NCBI GenBank assembly: GCA_951812825.1 | Contig: OX638324.1 | Coordinates: forward strand, 1,797,141-1,861,140 | Length of the DNA stretch: 64,000 bases | Reading direction: 5' to 3' | From: an uncultured Dehalococcoidia bacterium | GTDB lineage: Bacteria > Chloroflexota > Dehalococcoidia > Lucifugimonadales > GCA-2712585 | In this document: positions 39,992 to 46,117 of the stretch, in pieces | Layout: every line of letters begins with the position of its first letter | Numbering within the stretch: position 1 is the stretch's first letter | Program-made: the position numbers and the translations under genes | The notes under the pieces: generated by a model | Seen by the model: only the letters and a program-made list of their open reading frames with translations | Databases searched by the model: none | Told to the model about the DNA's origin: nothing

Positions 39992-42079
39992 CTAGCCACC
40001 CAAAAGGGGCGTTGCGTCCTTCAGCACCGGCGCGAAGATGAGGGCGACGATGGCCATGAGCTTCAGCAGGATGTTGAGGGAGGGGCCGGAGGTGTCCTTG
40101 AAGGGGTCTCCGACGGTGTCGCCAACAACGGCGGCCTTGTGGGCCTCGGAGCCTTTGCCGCCGAAGTTGCCGAGCTCGATGTACTTTTTGGCGTTGTCCC
40201 AGATGCCGCCGGCGTTGGCCATGGTGATGGCCAGCAGGAATCCGGCGGAAACCGCGCCGATGAGCAGCCCGCCGAGGGCGTCCTTGCCCAGGATGAAGCC
40301 GGTGGCGATGGGGACCACGACGGCCATGACGCCGGGGGCGATCATCTCCAGCAGCGCGCCGCGGGTGCTGATGTCCACGCAGCGAATGTAGTCGGGCTGT
40401 CGTTCGCCGGTCATGATGCCGGGAATCTCCCGGAACTGGCGACGAACTTCTCTAACGATGGAGAAGGCGGCGCGACCCACGGCCTGCATGGTGAGGGCGG
40501 AGAAGATGAAGGGGAGCAGCCCGCCGATGAGGAGGCCCACCAGGGTGCGGTGGTCCAGGAGGTTGAGCAGCAGGTTCCTCTCGTCGCCGCCTTCAAAGAG
40601 GTTGGCGGCGATGGCGTAGGTGGCCATGAGGGCGAGGGCGGTGAGGGTGGCGGAGCCGATGGCGAAACCCTTGCCGGTGGCAGCGGTGGTGTTTCCGAGG
40701 GCGTCGAGAGCGTCGGTGCGCTGGCGGACCTCGGGGGCCAGGTGGGCCTGCTCGGCGATGCCGCCGGCGTTGTCTGCCACGGGGCCGTAGGCGTCGGTGG
40801 CGAGGGTGATGCCCAGGGTGGAAAGCATCCCCACACCGGCGAGGGCCACGCCGTAGAAGCTGTAGAGCTCGAAGGCGACCATGATGGCGGCGCATACGGT
40901 CAAAACGGGGATGAGGGTGCTCATCATGCCTGTGGCGAGGCCGTTGATTACCACGGTGGCGTAGCCAGTTTGGCTAACCTCTGCGACGGCCTTGGTGGGG
41001 GGATAGTCGTAGGAGGTGTAGAACTCGGTAACGAGTCCGATTATTATGCCCGCGACCAGGCCCGCGACGATGGCTCCGAAGGCGTTCCATTGGAGCGGGA
41101 TATCCAGCCAGATAATAGCACCGAGGGAGAGAAGCATCACGATGATTGCGGCGCCGAAGATACCTCTTCTAAGGGACCAGAGCAGGTCCGAGAATGACGC
41201 CTGCTCCTTGCTTCTAACCAGGAAAGTGCCGAGCACGGAGGCAACGATGCCGGAGGCTGCGATTAACAGTGGCAGGACTACTAGGTCGTCGTCGAAGGGA
41301 AGGGTCTGGCCCGCCTCGCCGCCTGTAAAGACGATGGTGACGGCGGCGCCGGCGAGGGCGATGGCGGCGATGATGGAGCTGACGTAGGACTCGAAGAGGT
41401 CGGCGCCCATTCCGGCAACGTCGCCCACGTTGTCGCCGACGTTATCGGCGATGACGGCGGGGTTGCGGGGGTCGTCCTCGGGTATACCCGCTTCCACCTT
41501 GCCCACCAGGTCTGCGCCCACGTCGGCGGCTTTGGTGTAGATGCCGCCGCCAACCCTGGCGAATAGGGCGATGGAGGACGCACCAAGACCAAAGCCCGCG
41601 ACGTATGTGATGTCCTGGAATATGAGGTAGAGGATGGTGATGCCGAGGATGCCAAGGCCCACCACGGTGAGACCCATGACGGCGCCGGAATTGAAGGCAA
41701 CCCGCAGGGCGGGGTTCAGGCCCGTCTGGGCCGTGGCGGCGGTGCGGGTGTTGGCGCGGATGGCGATGCTCATGCCCAGGAAGCCGGCGAGGGCGGAGGT
41801 GAGACTGCCCGCCAGATAGGCTATGGCCGTTCTGGGGACGAGGGAGTCGAACTGCATGATGTCGATCACTATCCAGAGGACGGCGGTCACCACCAGCACA
41901 AAGGGCAGCAGCACCAGATACTCGCGCTTCAGGAAGGCCATGGCACCGCTCTGGATGGCGGCGCCGATGGCGATGGTTTCAACGTTGCCCTTGTTGGCCC
42001 GCATGACGCGAATAGCAAGGGAAACGGCAACTACGAGGGCCGTGACCCCCGCCACCGCTGCTATTACAAAGGTTGCCAT
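39992..42079 (-). CDS. hppA: Membrane-bound proton/sodium-pumping pyrophosphatase
   Basis: 695 residues with about 15-16 membrane segments. It couples PPi hydrolysis to ion export. Catalytic motifs are present: [20 protein letters not shown], the acidic [20 protein letters not shown], and the C-terminal [35 protein letters not shown] has Ala and Gly at the two positions that mark the potassium-dependent class; the independent class has Lys there. I cannot decide H+ versus Na+ by eye. It lies 37 bases downstream of the translin-like gene. Confidence 0.95.
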
Positions 42080-42116: not shown

Positions 42117-42779
42117 TTACTCGCCGCTCGCGGATTGTTGGCTGTTATCCGTCCAGGCGGCCAGTTTCTCCTCCAGGGAGCGCTGCCTGAGGGCGAGGGT
42201 GAAGTCGCCGCGGGTGCGCTCCAGGGTGCCGCGGACCATGTCGGTAGTGCGGCGCAGGCCCATGGTGACGCCCTCCGGGAAGTCGACGGTAACGAGGAGG
42301 GAGTAGATGTCGTCGAGGACTTCCATGACCTCCTCGCAGCGTTCCCACCGGTCCCAACGGAGAGAGTCGAGGATGTGGCGGCGCAGTTCGCCTGCGGCGT
42401 CTCCCAGGCCCTTGAGGTAGGCGGTAGTGTCCACCCCTATCTCGTTGGGCTGTGGCAGGGGCTCACCGGAGAGGAGGGCGAGGGTGATGTTGGCTTCGCT
42501 GAACTCCTTGCGAGCGTCGGCCATATATCCGGCATGATAGATTTCAGGGTTGGACTCCAGAATGGAGACGCACCCCTTCAGGTCGGTCCGAGCCTGGGCA
42601 ATGAGCTCACGGGCGTTGTCGAATTCGGAGCGGTGGACGGCGCGGATGGCGTTGGCGGAGAGGCGGATGACCTGGCGGGAGATGCGCAGGCCGCGCTCGC
42701 GGGCGTCGTGACGCCGGGTGAAGGTCTCAAGGGAAGCGTCGGAAAGTTTTGCGAAGGAGTCGGCGTATAGGGAGGGCAT
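42117..42779 (-). CDS. Translin-family protein
   Basis: 220 residues, all helical. The pattern fits the translin superfamily: an N-terminal RQVIRLSANAIRAVHRSEFD, AYLKGLGDAAGELRRHILDS, EVMEVLDDIYSLLVTVDFPE, and a C-terminal LRRTTDMVRGTLERTRGDFT. Translins bind or cleave short RNA/DNA. The acidic residues in GELRR and VRGTLERTRGD regions, needed in TRAX-like nucleases, look partly conserved. Its ATG overlaps the ThiE stop by one base, so it is coupled to the ThiE-fusion gene. Confidence 0.75.
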   Translation of the reverse strand: MPSLYADSFAKLSDASLETFTRRHDARERGLRISRQVIRLSANAIRAVHRSEFDNARELIAQARTDLKGCVSILESNPEIYHAGYMADARKEFSEANITLALLSGEPLPQPNEIGVDTTAYLKGLGDAAGELRRHILDSLRWDRWERCEEVMEVLDDIYSLLVTVDFPEGVTMGLRRTTDMVRGTLERTRGDFTLALRQRSLEEKLAAWTDNSQQSASGE

Positions 42780-43759
42780 CAGGCGCTCCCTCCGGCGTCA
42801 AGGATGGCTTGGACGAGGCGGCTTGAGGCGTCCCGAGGATTGGGGGCGAGCCCAACGGCGCTGATGACGCAGATGGCGTCGGCGCCCCTCTTCACGACCT
42901 CCGGGGAGCGTTCGGCGGTGATGCCGCCAATGGCGACCACGGGAAGGTCTACGGCGCGCTTGACGGCGCTGACCAGGGGCGGACCTTCGACGATTGGTTG
43001 GTCCTTGGAGCCGGTGGGGTACATGGCCCCGACGGCGATGTAGTCGGCGCCCCGTGCCTGGGAGGCAAGGGCTTCTTTGGCGTGGTGGTTGGACCGTCCG
43101 ACTATCTGGTGGTCCTTCAGCACCTTACGGGCTGATTCCACGGGCAGGTCTTCCTGGCCAACGTGTACGCCGTGGGCGTCGACGGCGGCGGCAAGGTCTG
43201 CGTGGTCGTTGATGATAAGCAGGGCGTCCTTCTCGCGGCAGAGTTGGTTGAGGGTTTGGGCCAAGCCGATGGAGAGGCCCTTGTCCCGTGTCTTGTCTCT
43301 AAGTTGAAGAATTCTTGCGCCGCCTTCCAGGGCTTCTTCGGCTATGTACTCCGGTGGTCTGCCTGCTGTAACCAGGGGGTCAATAATAACATATAGGCCG
43401 CGTATGCTGCGCCGGGCGTCCATGCGGAGCAAGGGACCGAAGTCGGCTTGGAGGGTTTCCAGGGTTGCCAGGATGCCCTGGGCGATGCGAAGGCCGAGAT
43501 CGCTGAACTGTCCGGCGTCGGTGAGATAGGAGAGGGAGGCCCGGGCGCTGTGGATGAGGGCGAGGGACTGGGCGACGGACTGGGGGCTTTCCGCGTCTGC
43601 CTGGGGGTCCAGGGGGCCGGGAAGCCGAGCGGCGAGGTTGTAGAGGGCCTTGGCCGTTGCGGAACTGTGGGAGAGAAAGCGTTCGGCGGCGTTGCTGAGG
43701 GCGATGCACGAGCGCTGCAATCCGCTGACGTGCAGGCGCAGGAGGTCAGCTTGAGTCAT
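42779..43759 (-). CDS. thiE: Thiamine-phosphate synthase ThiE with an added N-terminal helical domain
   Basis: 326 residues against about 215 for ThiE. The ThiE barrel starts near residue 119 (RGLYVIIDPLV) with GGARILQLRDKTRDKG, LIINDHADLAAAVDAHGVHV, GQEDLP, VGRSNHH and DYIAVGAMYPTGSKD. It joins HMP-pyrophosphate and thiazole phosphate. Residues 1-112 are helical, unrelated to ThiE, and of unknown role; PQSVAQSLALIHSARASL and a Leu-rich pattern suggest a bundle. The following translin-like protein is also all-helical and coupled, so the extra domain may mediate contact. Confidence 0.88.
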   Translation of the reverse strand: MTQADLLRLHVSGLQRSCIALSNAAERFLSHSSATAKALYNLAARLPGPLDPQADAESPQSVAQSLALIHSARASLSYLTDAGQFSDLGLRIAQGILATLETLQADFGPLLRMDARRSIRGLYVIIDPLVTAGRPPEYIAEEALEGGARILQLRDKTRDKGLSIGLAQTLNQLCREKDALLIINDHADLAAAVDAHGVHVGQEDLPVESARKVLKDHQIVGRSNHHAKEALASQARGADYIAVGAMYPTGSKDQPIVEGPPLVSAVKRAVDLPVVAIGGITAERSPEVVKRGADAICVISAVGLAPNPRDASSRLVQAILDAGGSA

Positions 43760-43921: not shown

Positions 43922-44299
43922 TCAGCAGAGGGGACGCTCGATGGCGTTCCGGAGGTGCCGCAGGGGGAGAACGCGGCCCAATCCGTCCATCTCCACGGAG
44001 ATGAGGTCGATGCGCCAGTGGCTGTCGGACAGGTTGTGTTCTTCGAGGTAGGTCTCCGCGGCAGCGATGAGTTTCCGGGTCTTGGCGGGGGTGATTGATT
44101 CCTCGGGAACGCCGTAGGATGTGGAGCGGCGGGTCTTCACTTCGACAAAGAGGATGGCGTCCTTGTTGCTTGCTATGATGTCCACCTCTCCCCACTGGCA
44201 GCGGTAGTTGGTGTCAAGAATGCGGCAGCCAAGTTTGAGGAGGTGTTGCCGGGCGAGCCTTTCGCCCAAGTTTCCCATGCGGCTCAGGGGCGAAGGCAC
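43922..44299 (-). CDS. YraN family (UPF0102) nuclease-like protein
   Basis: 125 residues, normal length. A PD-(D/E)XK-fold family: GNLGERLARQHLLKLGCRIL, then CQWGEVDIIAS (the D of the motif) and ILFVEVKTRRSTSYG (the E-x-K). The ATG at 44278 (MGNLGE) is a possible later start. It overlaps rnhB by 16 bases; the rnhB-yraN order is common in bacteria. Function remains unsettled in the family. Confidence 0.9.
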   Translation of the reverse strand: MPSPLSRMGNLGERLARQHLLKLGCRILDTNYRCQWGEVDIIASNKDAILFVEVKTRRSTSYGVPEESITPAKTRKLIAAAETYLEEHNLSDSHWRIDLISVEMDGLGRVLPLRHLRNAIERPLC

Positions 44300-44952
44300 G
44301 GTTTTGGCCTGGGGTGGAATAGGCGGGCCCTGCGGACGGGGGCGAAGGTGAAGCGGTGGATGGGCACGGGGCCGAGCAGATGAAGCTGCCGGAGGTGGGT
44401 CCGGGTGCCGTAGCCCTTGTGGCTGTGGAAGCCGTAGTCCGGCCAGCGTTCGTCAACGTGGTGCATGAGGCGGTCCCGGGCGACTTTGGCGGCGATGGCG
44501 GCGGCGGCGATGGAGTAGCTGACGCTGTCGCCGCGGGTGACAGAGGTGACGGGGAGGCCGGACTCGTCCAGTGAGATGTAGTCGACGAGGAGGTGATGGG
44601 GTTGGGGGGACAGGCCGCTGACGGCTCTGACCATGGCCAGGCGGGTGGCGGCGACGATGCCATGCTCGTCGATTTCCTCTGGGCCGGCGGAGCCTATGGA
44701 CACAGCCAAGGCGTGTTGGTGAATCTCTGTGGCGGCCTGCTCTCGCTGCATGGGGGTGAGCTTCTTGCTGTCGTCGATGCCGTTGAGCCAGGGGGCGGAG
44801 GGGTCCAGGTTGGGGGGGAGAATGACGGCGCCGGCCATGACGGGGCCGGCGAGAGCGCCCCTTCCTACCTCGTCGACGCCGGCCAGCAGGGTGTGACCGC
44901 GGCGGTGGAGGTCCTGCTCCAGGTCAAGGGAGGGCATTGGCCCCAAATCCAC
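44284..44952 (-). CDS. rnhB: Ribonuclease HII
   Basis: 222 residues. Removes RNA from RNA-DNA hybrids. DEDD active-site residues lie in LLAGVDEVGRGALAGPV, GIDDSKKLT and HHLLVDYISL, plus KVARDRLM. The start may be the ATG at residue 6. The end SHKGYGTRTHLRQLHLLGPVP is typical. The upstream end overlaps the extended 3' end of mnmA by 29 bases. Confidence 0.93.
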   Translation of the reverse strand: MDLGPMPSLDLEQDLHRRGHTLLAGVDEVGRGALAGPVMAGAVILPPNLDPSAPWLNGIDDSKKLTPMQREQAATEIHQHALAVSIGSAGPEEIDEHGIVAATRLAMVRAVSGLSPQPHHLLVDYISLDESGLPVTSVTRGDSVSYSIAAAAIAAKVARDRLMHHVDERWPDYGFHSHKGYGTRTHLRQLHLLGPVPIHRFTFAPVRRARLFHPRPKPCLRP

Positions 44953-46117
44953 CGTCTAACGATAGTATTGCTGTGTCGGGGGGTGCGGGCGCTTCGCGAA
45001 GCGCCCCTACGGGTTTTCGGGAATTCGGCTTTGGAGGATGAGAGATACGGCCGCCGCCGAGGACTTCGTCGTCCCTGTAGAAGACGACGGCCTGGCCGGG
45101 GGTTACGGCCCGCTGGGGTTCTTCGAAGCGGAGGAGGGCGTGGTCGTCCCGAGGATGGAGGCGGGCCGGGGTCTGGGTGGACTTGTAGCGGATCTTGACG
45201 GAGATTCTTATTCCCGGGGAGGGAGACTTGCCCTGGATGTAGTTGACGTTGGAGGCCCAGAGGGTGTCGCTGTAGAGTTCGCTTTCGGGGCCGATGGTGA
45301 TGTCCCTGCTGTCGGGGTCGATGGCGGTGACGTAGAGGGGGTTGGGGGAGGTGATGCCGAGGCCGCGGCGCTGTCCGACGGTGTAGAATTCGATGCCCTT
45401 ATGAGTCCCCATGGTCTCACCTGCGCTGTTGACGAGGCGTCCGGGCTTGGGGATGACGCGCTTCTGGATGAAGCTGCGGTAGTCGCCCAGGGGTATGAAG
45501 CAGATCTCCTGGCTGTCGGGCTTGTGGGCGTTGGGGAAGCCCGCGTCGGCGGCCATGCGGCGGATTTCGTCCTTGGGGTACGTCCCGACGGGCATGAGGG
45601 TTTGGCTGAGCTGGTCCTGGTTCATGCCGAAGAGGACGTAGGACTGGTCCTTGGAGCCGTCGAGGCCCGTGAGCAGACGCCAGCCTTCTTCGCCGGGGAG
45701 GATGCGGGCGTAGTGGCCGGTGGCGACGTGGGAGGCGCCGAGGAAGCGGGCGCGCCGGAGGAGGAAGGAGAACTTGATGCGGTCGTTGCAGGCGATGCAG
45801 GGATGGGGGGTCTTGCCCTGCTGGTATTCGGCGAGGAAGTAGTCGATGACGTGGGCCCGAAACTCGCGCTGGAGGTTGAAGACGTAGTGGGGAACGTGAA
45901 GGATGTGGCAGACGCGGCGGGCGTCTTCCACGTCGTCGAGGGTGCAGCAGCCCTTGTTGTAGGTGGCAGCGTTCTCGGCGGGATAGTCGAAGAGCTTCAT
46001 GGTGACGCCGACGACGTCATGCCCGGCTTGCTTGAGGAGCAGGGCGGCGACGGAGGAGTCGACGCCGCCGCTCATGGCGACGATGACCTTTGAGTTGGGG
46101 TTGGGGGCGTTGTTCAT
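44924..46117 (-). CDS. mnmA: tRNA-specific 2-thiouridylase MnmA
   Basis: 397 residues against about 360. MnmA makes 2-thiouridine at position 34. The PP-loop is VAMSGGVDSSVAALLL; catalytic cysteines are in TPHPCIACNDRIKF and in SQEICFIP. The normal domain ends near GQAVVFYRDDEVLGGGRIS. About 35 extra residues follow, and 44987-45006 within them is a perfect 20-base palindromic repeat encoding GALREAP, so the stop has been moved downstream into rnhB. The promoter at 46128 leaves a leader of about 4 bases. Confidence 0.93.
   Translation of the reverse strand: MNNAPNPNSKVIVAMSGGVDSSVAALLLKQAGHDVVGVTMKLFDYPAENAATYNKGCCTLDDVEDARRVCHILHVPHYVFNLQREFRAHVIDYFLAEYQQGKTPHPCIACNDRIKFSFLLRRARFLGASHVATGHYARILPGEEGWRLLTGLDGSKDQSYVLFGMNQDQLSQTLMPVGTYPKDEIRRMAADAGFPNAHKPDSQEICFIPLGDYRSFIQKRVIPKPGRLVNSAGETMGTHKGIEFYTVGQRRGLGITSPNPLYVTAIDPDSRDITIGPESELYSDTLWASNVNYIQGKSPSPGIRISVKIRYKSTQTPARLHPRDDHALLRFEEPQRAVTPGQAVVFYRDDEVLGGGRISHPPKPNSRKPVGALREAPAPPDTAILSLDGGFGANALP
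44987..45006. repeat. Perfect 20-base palindrome within the mnmA 3' end
   Basis: GGGCGCTTCG and CGAAGCGCCC, followed by CTACGGG. The layout resembles the element at 39855-39874. Confidence 0.6.

Follow-up and report, generated by a model that had tools for sequence, protein, structure and literature searches.

The window analysed here is a stretch of 64,000 nucleotides from the genome of an uncultured marine Dehalococcoidia bacterium, a genome that forms one contig (2.47 Mb, 95.65% complete). It carries the gene order mnmA, rnhB, yraN, thiE, translin, H+-pyrophosphatase (Table 1). As the preliminary description of this DNA had it, the thiE frame encodes a ThiE protein with an added helical domain, which here comprises about 117 amino acids with four predicted helices, and the gene overlaps that of a translin-family protein by one base. 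The thiE stop codon occupies positions 42781-42779 and the translin start codon positions 42777-42779, and the minus strand reads TGATG. This junction would tie translation of the translin-family gene to that of thiE. Genes also overlap at mnmA/rnhB and rnhB/yraN in the window when the longest open reading frames are taken, so an overlap is not peculiar to thiE and translin.

Table 1. Coordinates of the features discussed, in the window unless a contig label (L) is given
Feature	Location	Strand	Profile
H+-pyrophosphatase, recurrent downstream neighbour	39992..42079	(-)	PF03030
Trax-type translin-family protein, 220 aa; candidate catalytic acids E92, E95, D127, E131	42117..42779	(-)	
TGATG, one base common to thiE stop and translin start	42777..42781	(-)	
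thiE, thiamine-phosphate synthase with N-terminal helical domain, 326 aa	42779..43759	(-)	
ThiE TMP-TENI barrel, residues 122-302	42854..43396	(-)	PF02581
N-terminal four-helix domain, residues 1-117, putative decayed ThiD2 (HMP-phosphate kinase)	43409..43759	(-)	
yraN (UPF0102), recurrent upstream neighbour	43922..44299	(-)	
rnhB (RNase HII), recurrent upstream neighbour	44284..44952	(-)	
mnmA, upstream end of recurrent cluster	44924..46117	(-)	
Clp_N-ThiE ORF	L155:491-1699	(+)	
Clp_N-ThiE ORF	L169:576-1739	(+)	
Clp_N-ThiE ORF	L172:366-1583	(-)	
Clp_N-ThiE ORF	L241:4308-5471	(+)	

The barrel matches its Pfam family at an E value of 1.4e-55 (187.9 bits against a cut-off of 27), and the score of 186 bits against TIGR00693, where the cut-off is 145.1, places the protein in the ThiE family. 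Residues Q152, R154, K156, N184, D185 and D204 are invariant across an alignment of 37 rows (36 of the 80 named loci and the window), S223 and K252 are nearly so, and we take these motif residues to be those of the active site. Among the solved structures listed as matches to the window ThiE model, the best was 1xi3, a thiamine phosphate synthase (Z 31.8, rmsd 1.4 over 202). The protein looks active and would condense HMP-PP with thiazole phosphate. Stand-alone ThiE proteins (Pyrococcus furiosus, 1xi3; Bacillus subtilis, 2tps) share its TIM barrel and active-site motif residues but are without the extra N-terminal helical domain.

The N-terminal domain of ThiE compared with ThiD2

No Pfam family matched residues 1-118 of the window ThiE at E values up to 1. 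The preliminary description had left the fold of this domain to structure prediction, and because the AlphaFold2 model (37-sequence alignment, mean pLDDT 94.7) places four long helices there, at residues 3-28, 33-44, 62-81 and 87-117, a folded, helical domain is predicted. In the AlphaFold2 model of an intact ThiD2-ThiE fusion (L256; mean pLDDT 89.5) the helices span residues 2-26, 30-44, 78-100 and 109-137. Their order is the same, with a shorter connection from helix 2 to helix 3 in the window protein; the comparison of the two models was one of helix limits only, and the alignment behind each contained both kinds of sequence. When the models were compared with solved structures the ThiE barrel filled the matches listed, so that comparison hardly probed the fold of the N-terminal domain. 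A search of solved chains with a ThiD2 sequence gave no match at E values up to 1.

The window protein resembles the ThiD2-ThiE fusions (PF17792 plus PF02581) of other Dehalococcoidia in two-domain layout, helix order, position and gene neighbourhood, and it keeps the ThiE motif residues found in them. These fusions differ in having conserved ThiD2 motifs that the window protein has lost: DAN.NR..EGLR.LED, R...DVG and AN..R..SLR..EE are all missing from its N-terminal domain. By an alignment-dependent count, the window keeps 8 of 38 ThiD2-conserved positions, whereas 19 intact rows keep 35 to 38. PF17792 matched neither the window domain nor anything else in its genome, and a recognisable ThiD2 elsewhere in that genome was thereby rejected. 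Cyanobacteria carry a ThiD2-ThiE fusion, and ThiD2 was present in our control genome, Synechococcus elongatus.

Gene content, ThiE phylogeny and profile comparisons

We call the window's order SAR202-type, since the nearest named relatives of the translin-family protein are Dehalococcoidia, some of which are filed as SAR202. Families elsewhere in the class often have thiE in the same neighbourhood, with DANLNR..EGLR.LED and the other ThiD2 marks present in many of the copies; Pfam finds ThiD2 in all five such proteins scanned (L203, L074, L099, L108 and L110). The ThiD2 family was detected in 49 of 119 class genomes and in none of 147 genomes of the window's order, whereas ThiD exceeded its cut-off in 38 and 123 of them, respectively; these counts, like those for ThiC, ignore shared descent and include many incomplete genomes. 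The two kinases rarely coincide: among the 119 class genomes, one has both, 48 have ThiD2 only, 37 ThiD only and 33 neither (Fisher p 3e-10, with rows that are not independent by descent). The 24 order genomes with no ThiD over the cut-off count against simple displacement of ThiD2 by ThiD, and in one genome (G127, 87% complete) ThiC and a decayed N-terminal domain (L115) occur with no ThiD match whatsoever. ThiC is found in 61 of the 119 class genomes versus 12 of the 147 order genomes, and since those 12 keep it, we rejected loss of ThiC as a general trigger of ThiD2 decay.

ThiC was not found in the window's genome. A TenA-family gene (L163:8786-10245) lies next to the ThiD frame, which overlaps it when given its longest start; the TenA-family product scores above the cut-off for PF03070 and slightly below that for the TenA model TIGR04306. 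The gene of a second TMP-TENI protein adjoins that of ThiG; its NCBIfam scores lean to ThiE, and we took it for TenI because of the ThiG neighbour. A TPP riboswitch lies at the start of thiG (L186:11034-11143(-)); none was found in the 64-kb window at the gathering threshold. An IS481-type transposase frame just below its model cut-off is present near the thiG region (L186:6774-7802(-)). With no ThiC found, the expected route would be salvage, in which the TenA-family protein and ThiD supply HMP-PP, ThiG supplies thiazole phosphate, and the window ThiE condenses the two. This gene content fits the pyrimidine auxotrophy and the TenA already reported for SAR202 in passages of PMC12236431 and PMC10470507. 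According to a passage of PMC12345177, ThiD2 acts on HMP-P and not on HMP, and a switch to ThiD therefore fits salvage of HMP.

In a midpoint-rooted ThiE tree of 142 rows, the 71 rows from the window's order group with 13 named rows in one clade of 84 (100/99). The other 58 rows comprise 49 whose ThiD2 motifs are intact, six that lack the N-terminal domain, one that is TenI-like and two of other kinds, both from genomes in which the ThiD2 matches are only partial and lie at contig ends. The order's ThiE clade thus sits inside a grade mostly with intact ThiD2.

Of the order's 69 ThiE loci examined, the window included, 48 entered profile sets, 13 have fewer than 60 codons before ThiE and eight were added later. 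The sets comprise groups A (4 loci, the window's family), B (12) and C (25), four loci of family f3 and three with Clp_N. In family f88, ThiE lies behind two Clp_N repeats (PF02861) that replace the ThiD2-like domain, the Pfam scan having covered L155, L172 and L241. Family f3 (ThiE frames L145, L168, L171 and L181) has a different N-terminal domain without a Pfam match in the two frames scanned, L145 and L181. Profile comparison gave the window domain probabilities of 0.3% and 0.1% with the Clp_N and f3 domains and 0.4% with translin, and kinship to either domain and an origin from translin were rejected.

Group C matched intact ThiD2 with a probability of 92.8% (E 3.9e-7, 98 columns) in the first row set. 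As this group had first been chosen by eye, a wider row set was compared afterwards; there C matched ThiD2 at 90.9% and all order rows pooled at 78.8%, with 0.3% for reversed controls. When C was split by tree position, its two parts matched at 73.7% and 84.7%. The seven rows initially omitted gave 1.3% as a set. Groups A and B show no direct match to intact ThiD2 (2.7% and 0.1%; 0.2% when combined), and their similarity to it runs through relatives. A matched B at 76.4% over only 27 columns in the first set and at 74.2% over 67 columns in the wider one; the corresponding values are 64.6% (over 92 columns) and 27.7% for B against C, and 26.7% and 42.2% for A against C. Reversed controls of the first set did not exceed 1.2%. 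Combined, A and B matched C at 29.3%, and A, B and C together matched ThiD2 at 79.1% (reversed controls at most 1.7%), while A and B scored 1.8-16.3% against the two tree parts of C. The link between the window domain and ThiD2 is transitive, through relatives, and partly weak or short.

For that reason we leave some room for a swap, in which the window's lineage deleted the ThiD2 domain and fused an unrelated helical domain in its place. N-terminal domains have been exchanged elsewhere in the order, as in f88 and f3, and the window's group is linked no more than modestly to the ThiD2-like group C. We nevertheless consider a swap unlikely. The profile links, although transitive, exist, as does the match of the pooled order profile to ThiD2, and the f3 and Clp_N domains are without such links; helix order and position equal those of intact ThiD2; and the ThiD2-like group neighbours the window's group in the ThiE tree. 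The preliminary description had ThiE gaining about 112 helical residues. Gene content, tree and profiles favour the opposite course, and the domain was most likely inherited rather than gained, as a worn-out ThiD2 kinase domain.

The translin-family neighbour of thiE

The translin-family protein scores below the cut-off of PF01997 (E 2.6e-4), and its affiliation is clearer from archaeal Trax, which is the closest among solved structures. AfTrax (3zc1) matches it at 4.8e-19 as a single sequence and at 3e-35 with a profile; the match spans profile positions 5-194 of 199, a Trax similarity over the whole length, which bears out the family named for the partner in the preliminary description. E92, E95 and E131 are present in all 194 distinct aligned relatives, and position 127 is acidic in each of them (E in 180, D in 14). 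At the residue aligned to position 127, the PDB sequences 3zc1 and 3zc0 have D and A, respectively. We assume that the human Trax acids, E126, E129 and D193 together with Glu197, which would correspond to E131, align with those of the window protein. Since catalytic-type acids of Trax are kept, the earlier wording "RNA-binding factor" is too weak even though the assignment to the translin family stands, and the protein is probably a nuclease, more precisely an RNase. Glu197 of human Trax is catalytic according to passages of PMC9246224, which also describe translin as having lost most of the Trax catalytic residues; eukaryotic translin, though of the same superfamily, differs in this from the window protein, which has the acidic ones. 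From archaeal Trax/C3PO, with its near whole-length match, the window protein differs in being bacterial and, in many relatives, encoded beside thiE, and its nuclease role is putative. Bacterial members of this superfamily have already been published, as a reference title within PMC3834833 indicates. Proteins of this type occur in many Chloroflexota records with conserved catalytic-type acids and make a candidate bacterial RNase. A scan of genome contigs with the single protein found no relatives, whereas a scan with an alignment found them. NCBIfam models labelled "haloacid dehalogenase superfamily protein" also hit the protein with scores under their cut-offs; the label is misleading.

The pairing of the two genes is widely conserved. 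We took 80 of the 86 other translin-bearing class genomes and the window, and in 47 of these 81 loci thiE precedes translin on the same strand by at most 1 kb, which argues that the pairing is not due to chance. Among well-flanked loci, those with 4 kb or more upstream and 3 kb or more downstream, the same holds for 27 of 44 class loci and for 29 of 55 named loci, the latter drawn from the best 80 of 529 relatives and thus leaning to close ones. The genes are nonetheless apart in 17 of the 44 well-flanked class loci, and 13 of these 17 still have yraN, rnhB or the H+-pyrophosphatase near translin. thiE is a frequent but separable neighbour of translin, and the separation that the preliminary description had named as telling against its claim, a specific coupling of vitamin synthesis to an RNA-binding fold, is what many relatives display; the claim is not supported.

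Joint action of ThiE and the Trax-type protein, with the RNase tuning thiamine genes or the two proteins forming a complex, would account for the TGATG overlap and for the rank of thiE as the most frequent of the five translin neighbours checked. Also in its favour, translin is present in 57 of 61 ThiC-bearing class genomes and in 30 of the 58 others (p 2e-7, a test that ignores descent). Such action is nevertheless quite improbable given the many loci that separate the genes and the four genomes (G133, G138, G171 and G251) that have translin and no ThiE match; the other genes of the neighbourhood, moreover, are of general housekeeping and overlap too, and the window is without a TPP riboswitch at the gathering threshold. 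The Trax-type protein would rather be a separate, probably active RNase held in the same gene neighbourhood.

Constraint on the N-terminal domain and its probable history

Substitution rates were compared in 20 hand-picked pairs. In all 20 the N-terminal domain had a higher dN and a lower identity than the ThiE part. The dN/dS ratios ranged from 0.09 to 0.78 for the N-terminal domain and from 0.03 to 0.35 for ThiE, and dS was frequently close to 1 or higher. In the seven pairs that share 94% identity or more in the ThiE part, all from family f100, the ratios were 0.09-0.20 and 0.03-0.06. Pairs that include the window have high or saturated dS, so constraint on its own domain is something we infer rather than measure. 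The loci with fewer than 60 codons of frame before ThiE include two of the window's own family (L119 and L121), and since two genera of that family have little or no such frame (L119-L121), the domain can be dispensed with. The N-terminal domain seems constrained where it is retained, less so than ThiE, and yet dispensable. That it is still a working, strongly diverged HMP-P kinase, as the predicted fold and the constraint in close pairs of another family might suggest, is highly improbable with 30 of the 38 ThiD2-conserved positions changed or missing, the R...DVG stretch among them, a full ThiD in the genome, and little or nothing of the domain in close relatives.

The reading we favour is descent from a ThiD2-ThiE fusion, a single polypeptide that both produced HMP-PP and coupled it to the thiazole. 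Canonical ThiD would have taken over phosphorylation of HMP-P in the ancestor of the SAR202-type order, after which the ThiD2 domain would have shed its conserved motifs, and with them its kinase activity. In many members the decayed domain would have been retained as a four-helix N-terminal cap that may support the ThiE barrel, its folding or its assembly, evolving fast but not freely. This course of descent, takeover and decay, together with salvage of HMP and a separate Trax-type RNase, we regard as likely when taken as a whole. More tentatively, and with rather less than even confidence, we propose that the ThiD2 half, its motifs lost upon displacement by ThiD, survives as a pseudoenzyme cap under selection, for which Clp_N and other helical domains would substitute in some families.

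If true, the displacement would offer a natural case of ThiD replacing ThiD2 in which the ousted domain is still part of the protein and under constraint, and the pseudoenzyme cap would mean a vitamin enzyme that depends on, or benefits from, a helical cap in this position. The window gene is a variant of the known ThiD2-ThiE fusion, and SAR202 auxotrophy and TenA are known as well; we found no description of a decayed ThiD2 domain in the open literature searched. As an ensemble, the locus probably combines a vestigial ThiD2 domain, predicted to be folded, on an active-looking ThiE with a neighbouring, probable Trax-type RNase, in a group that a passage of PMC10470507 describes as thriving in the dark ocean. 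A further arrangement occurs in another family, where two frames (L099:3880-4938(+) and L108:4086-4943(+)) have ThiD2 intact and a ThiE barrel that is matched over about half its profile.
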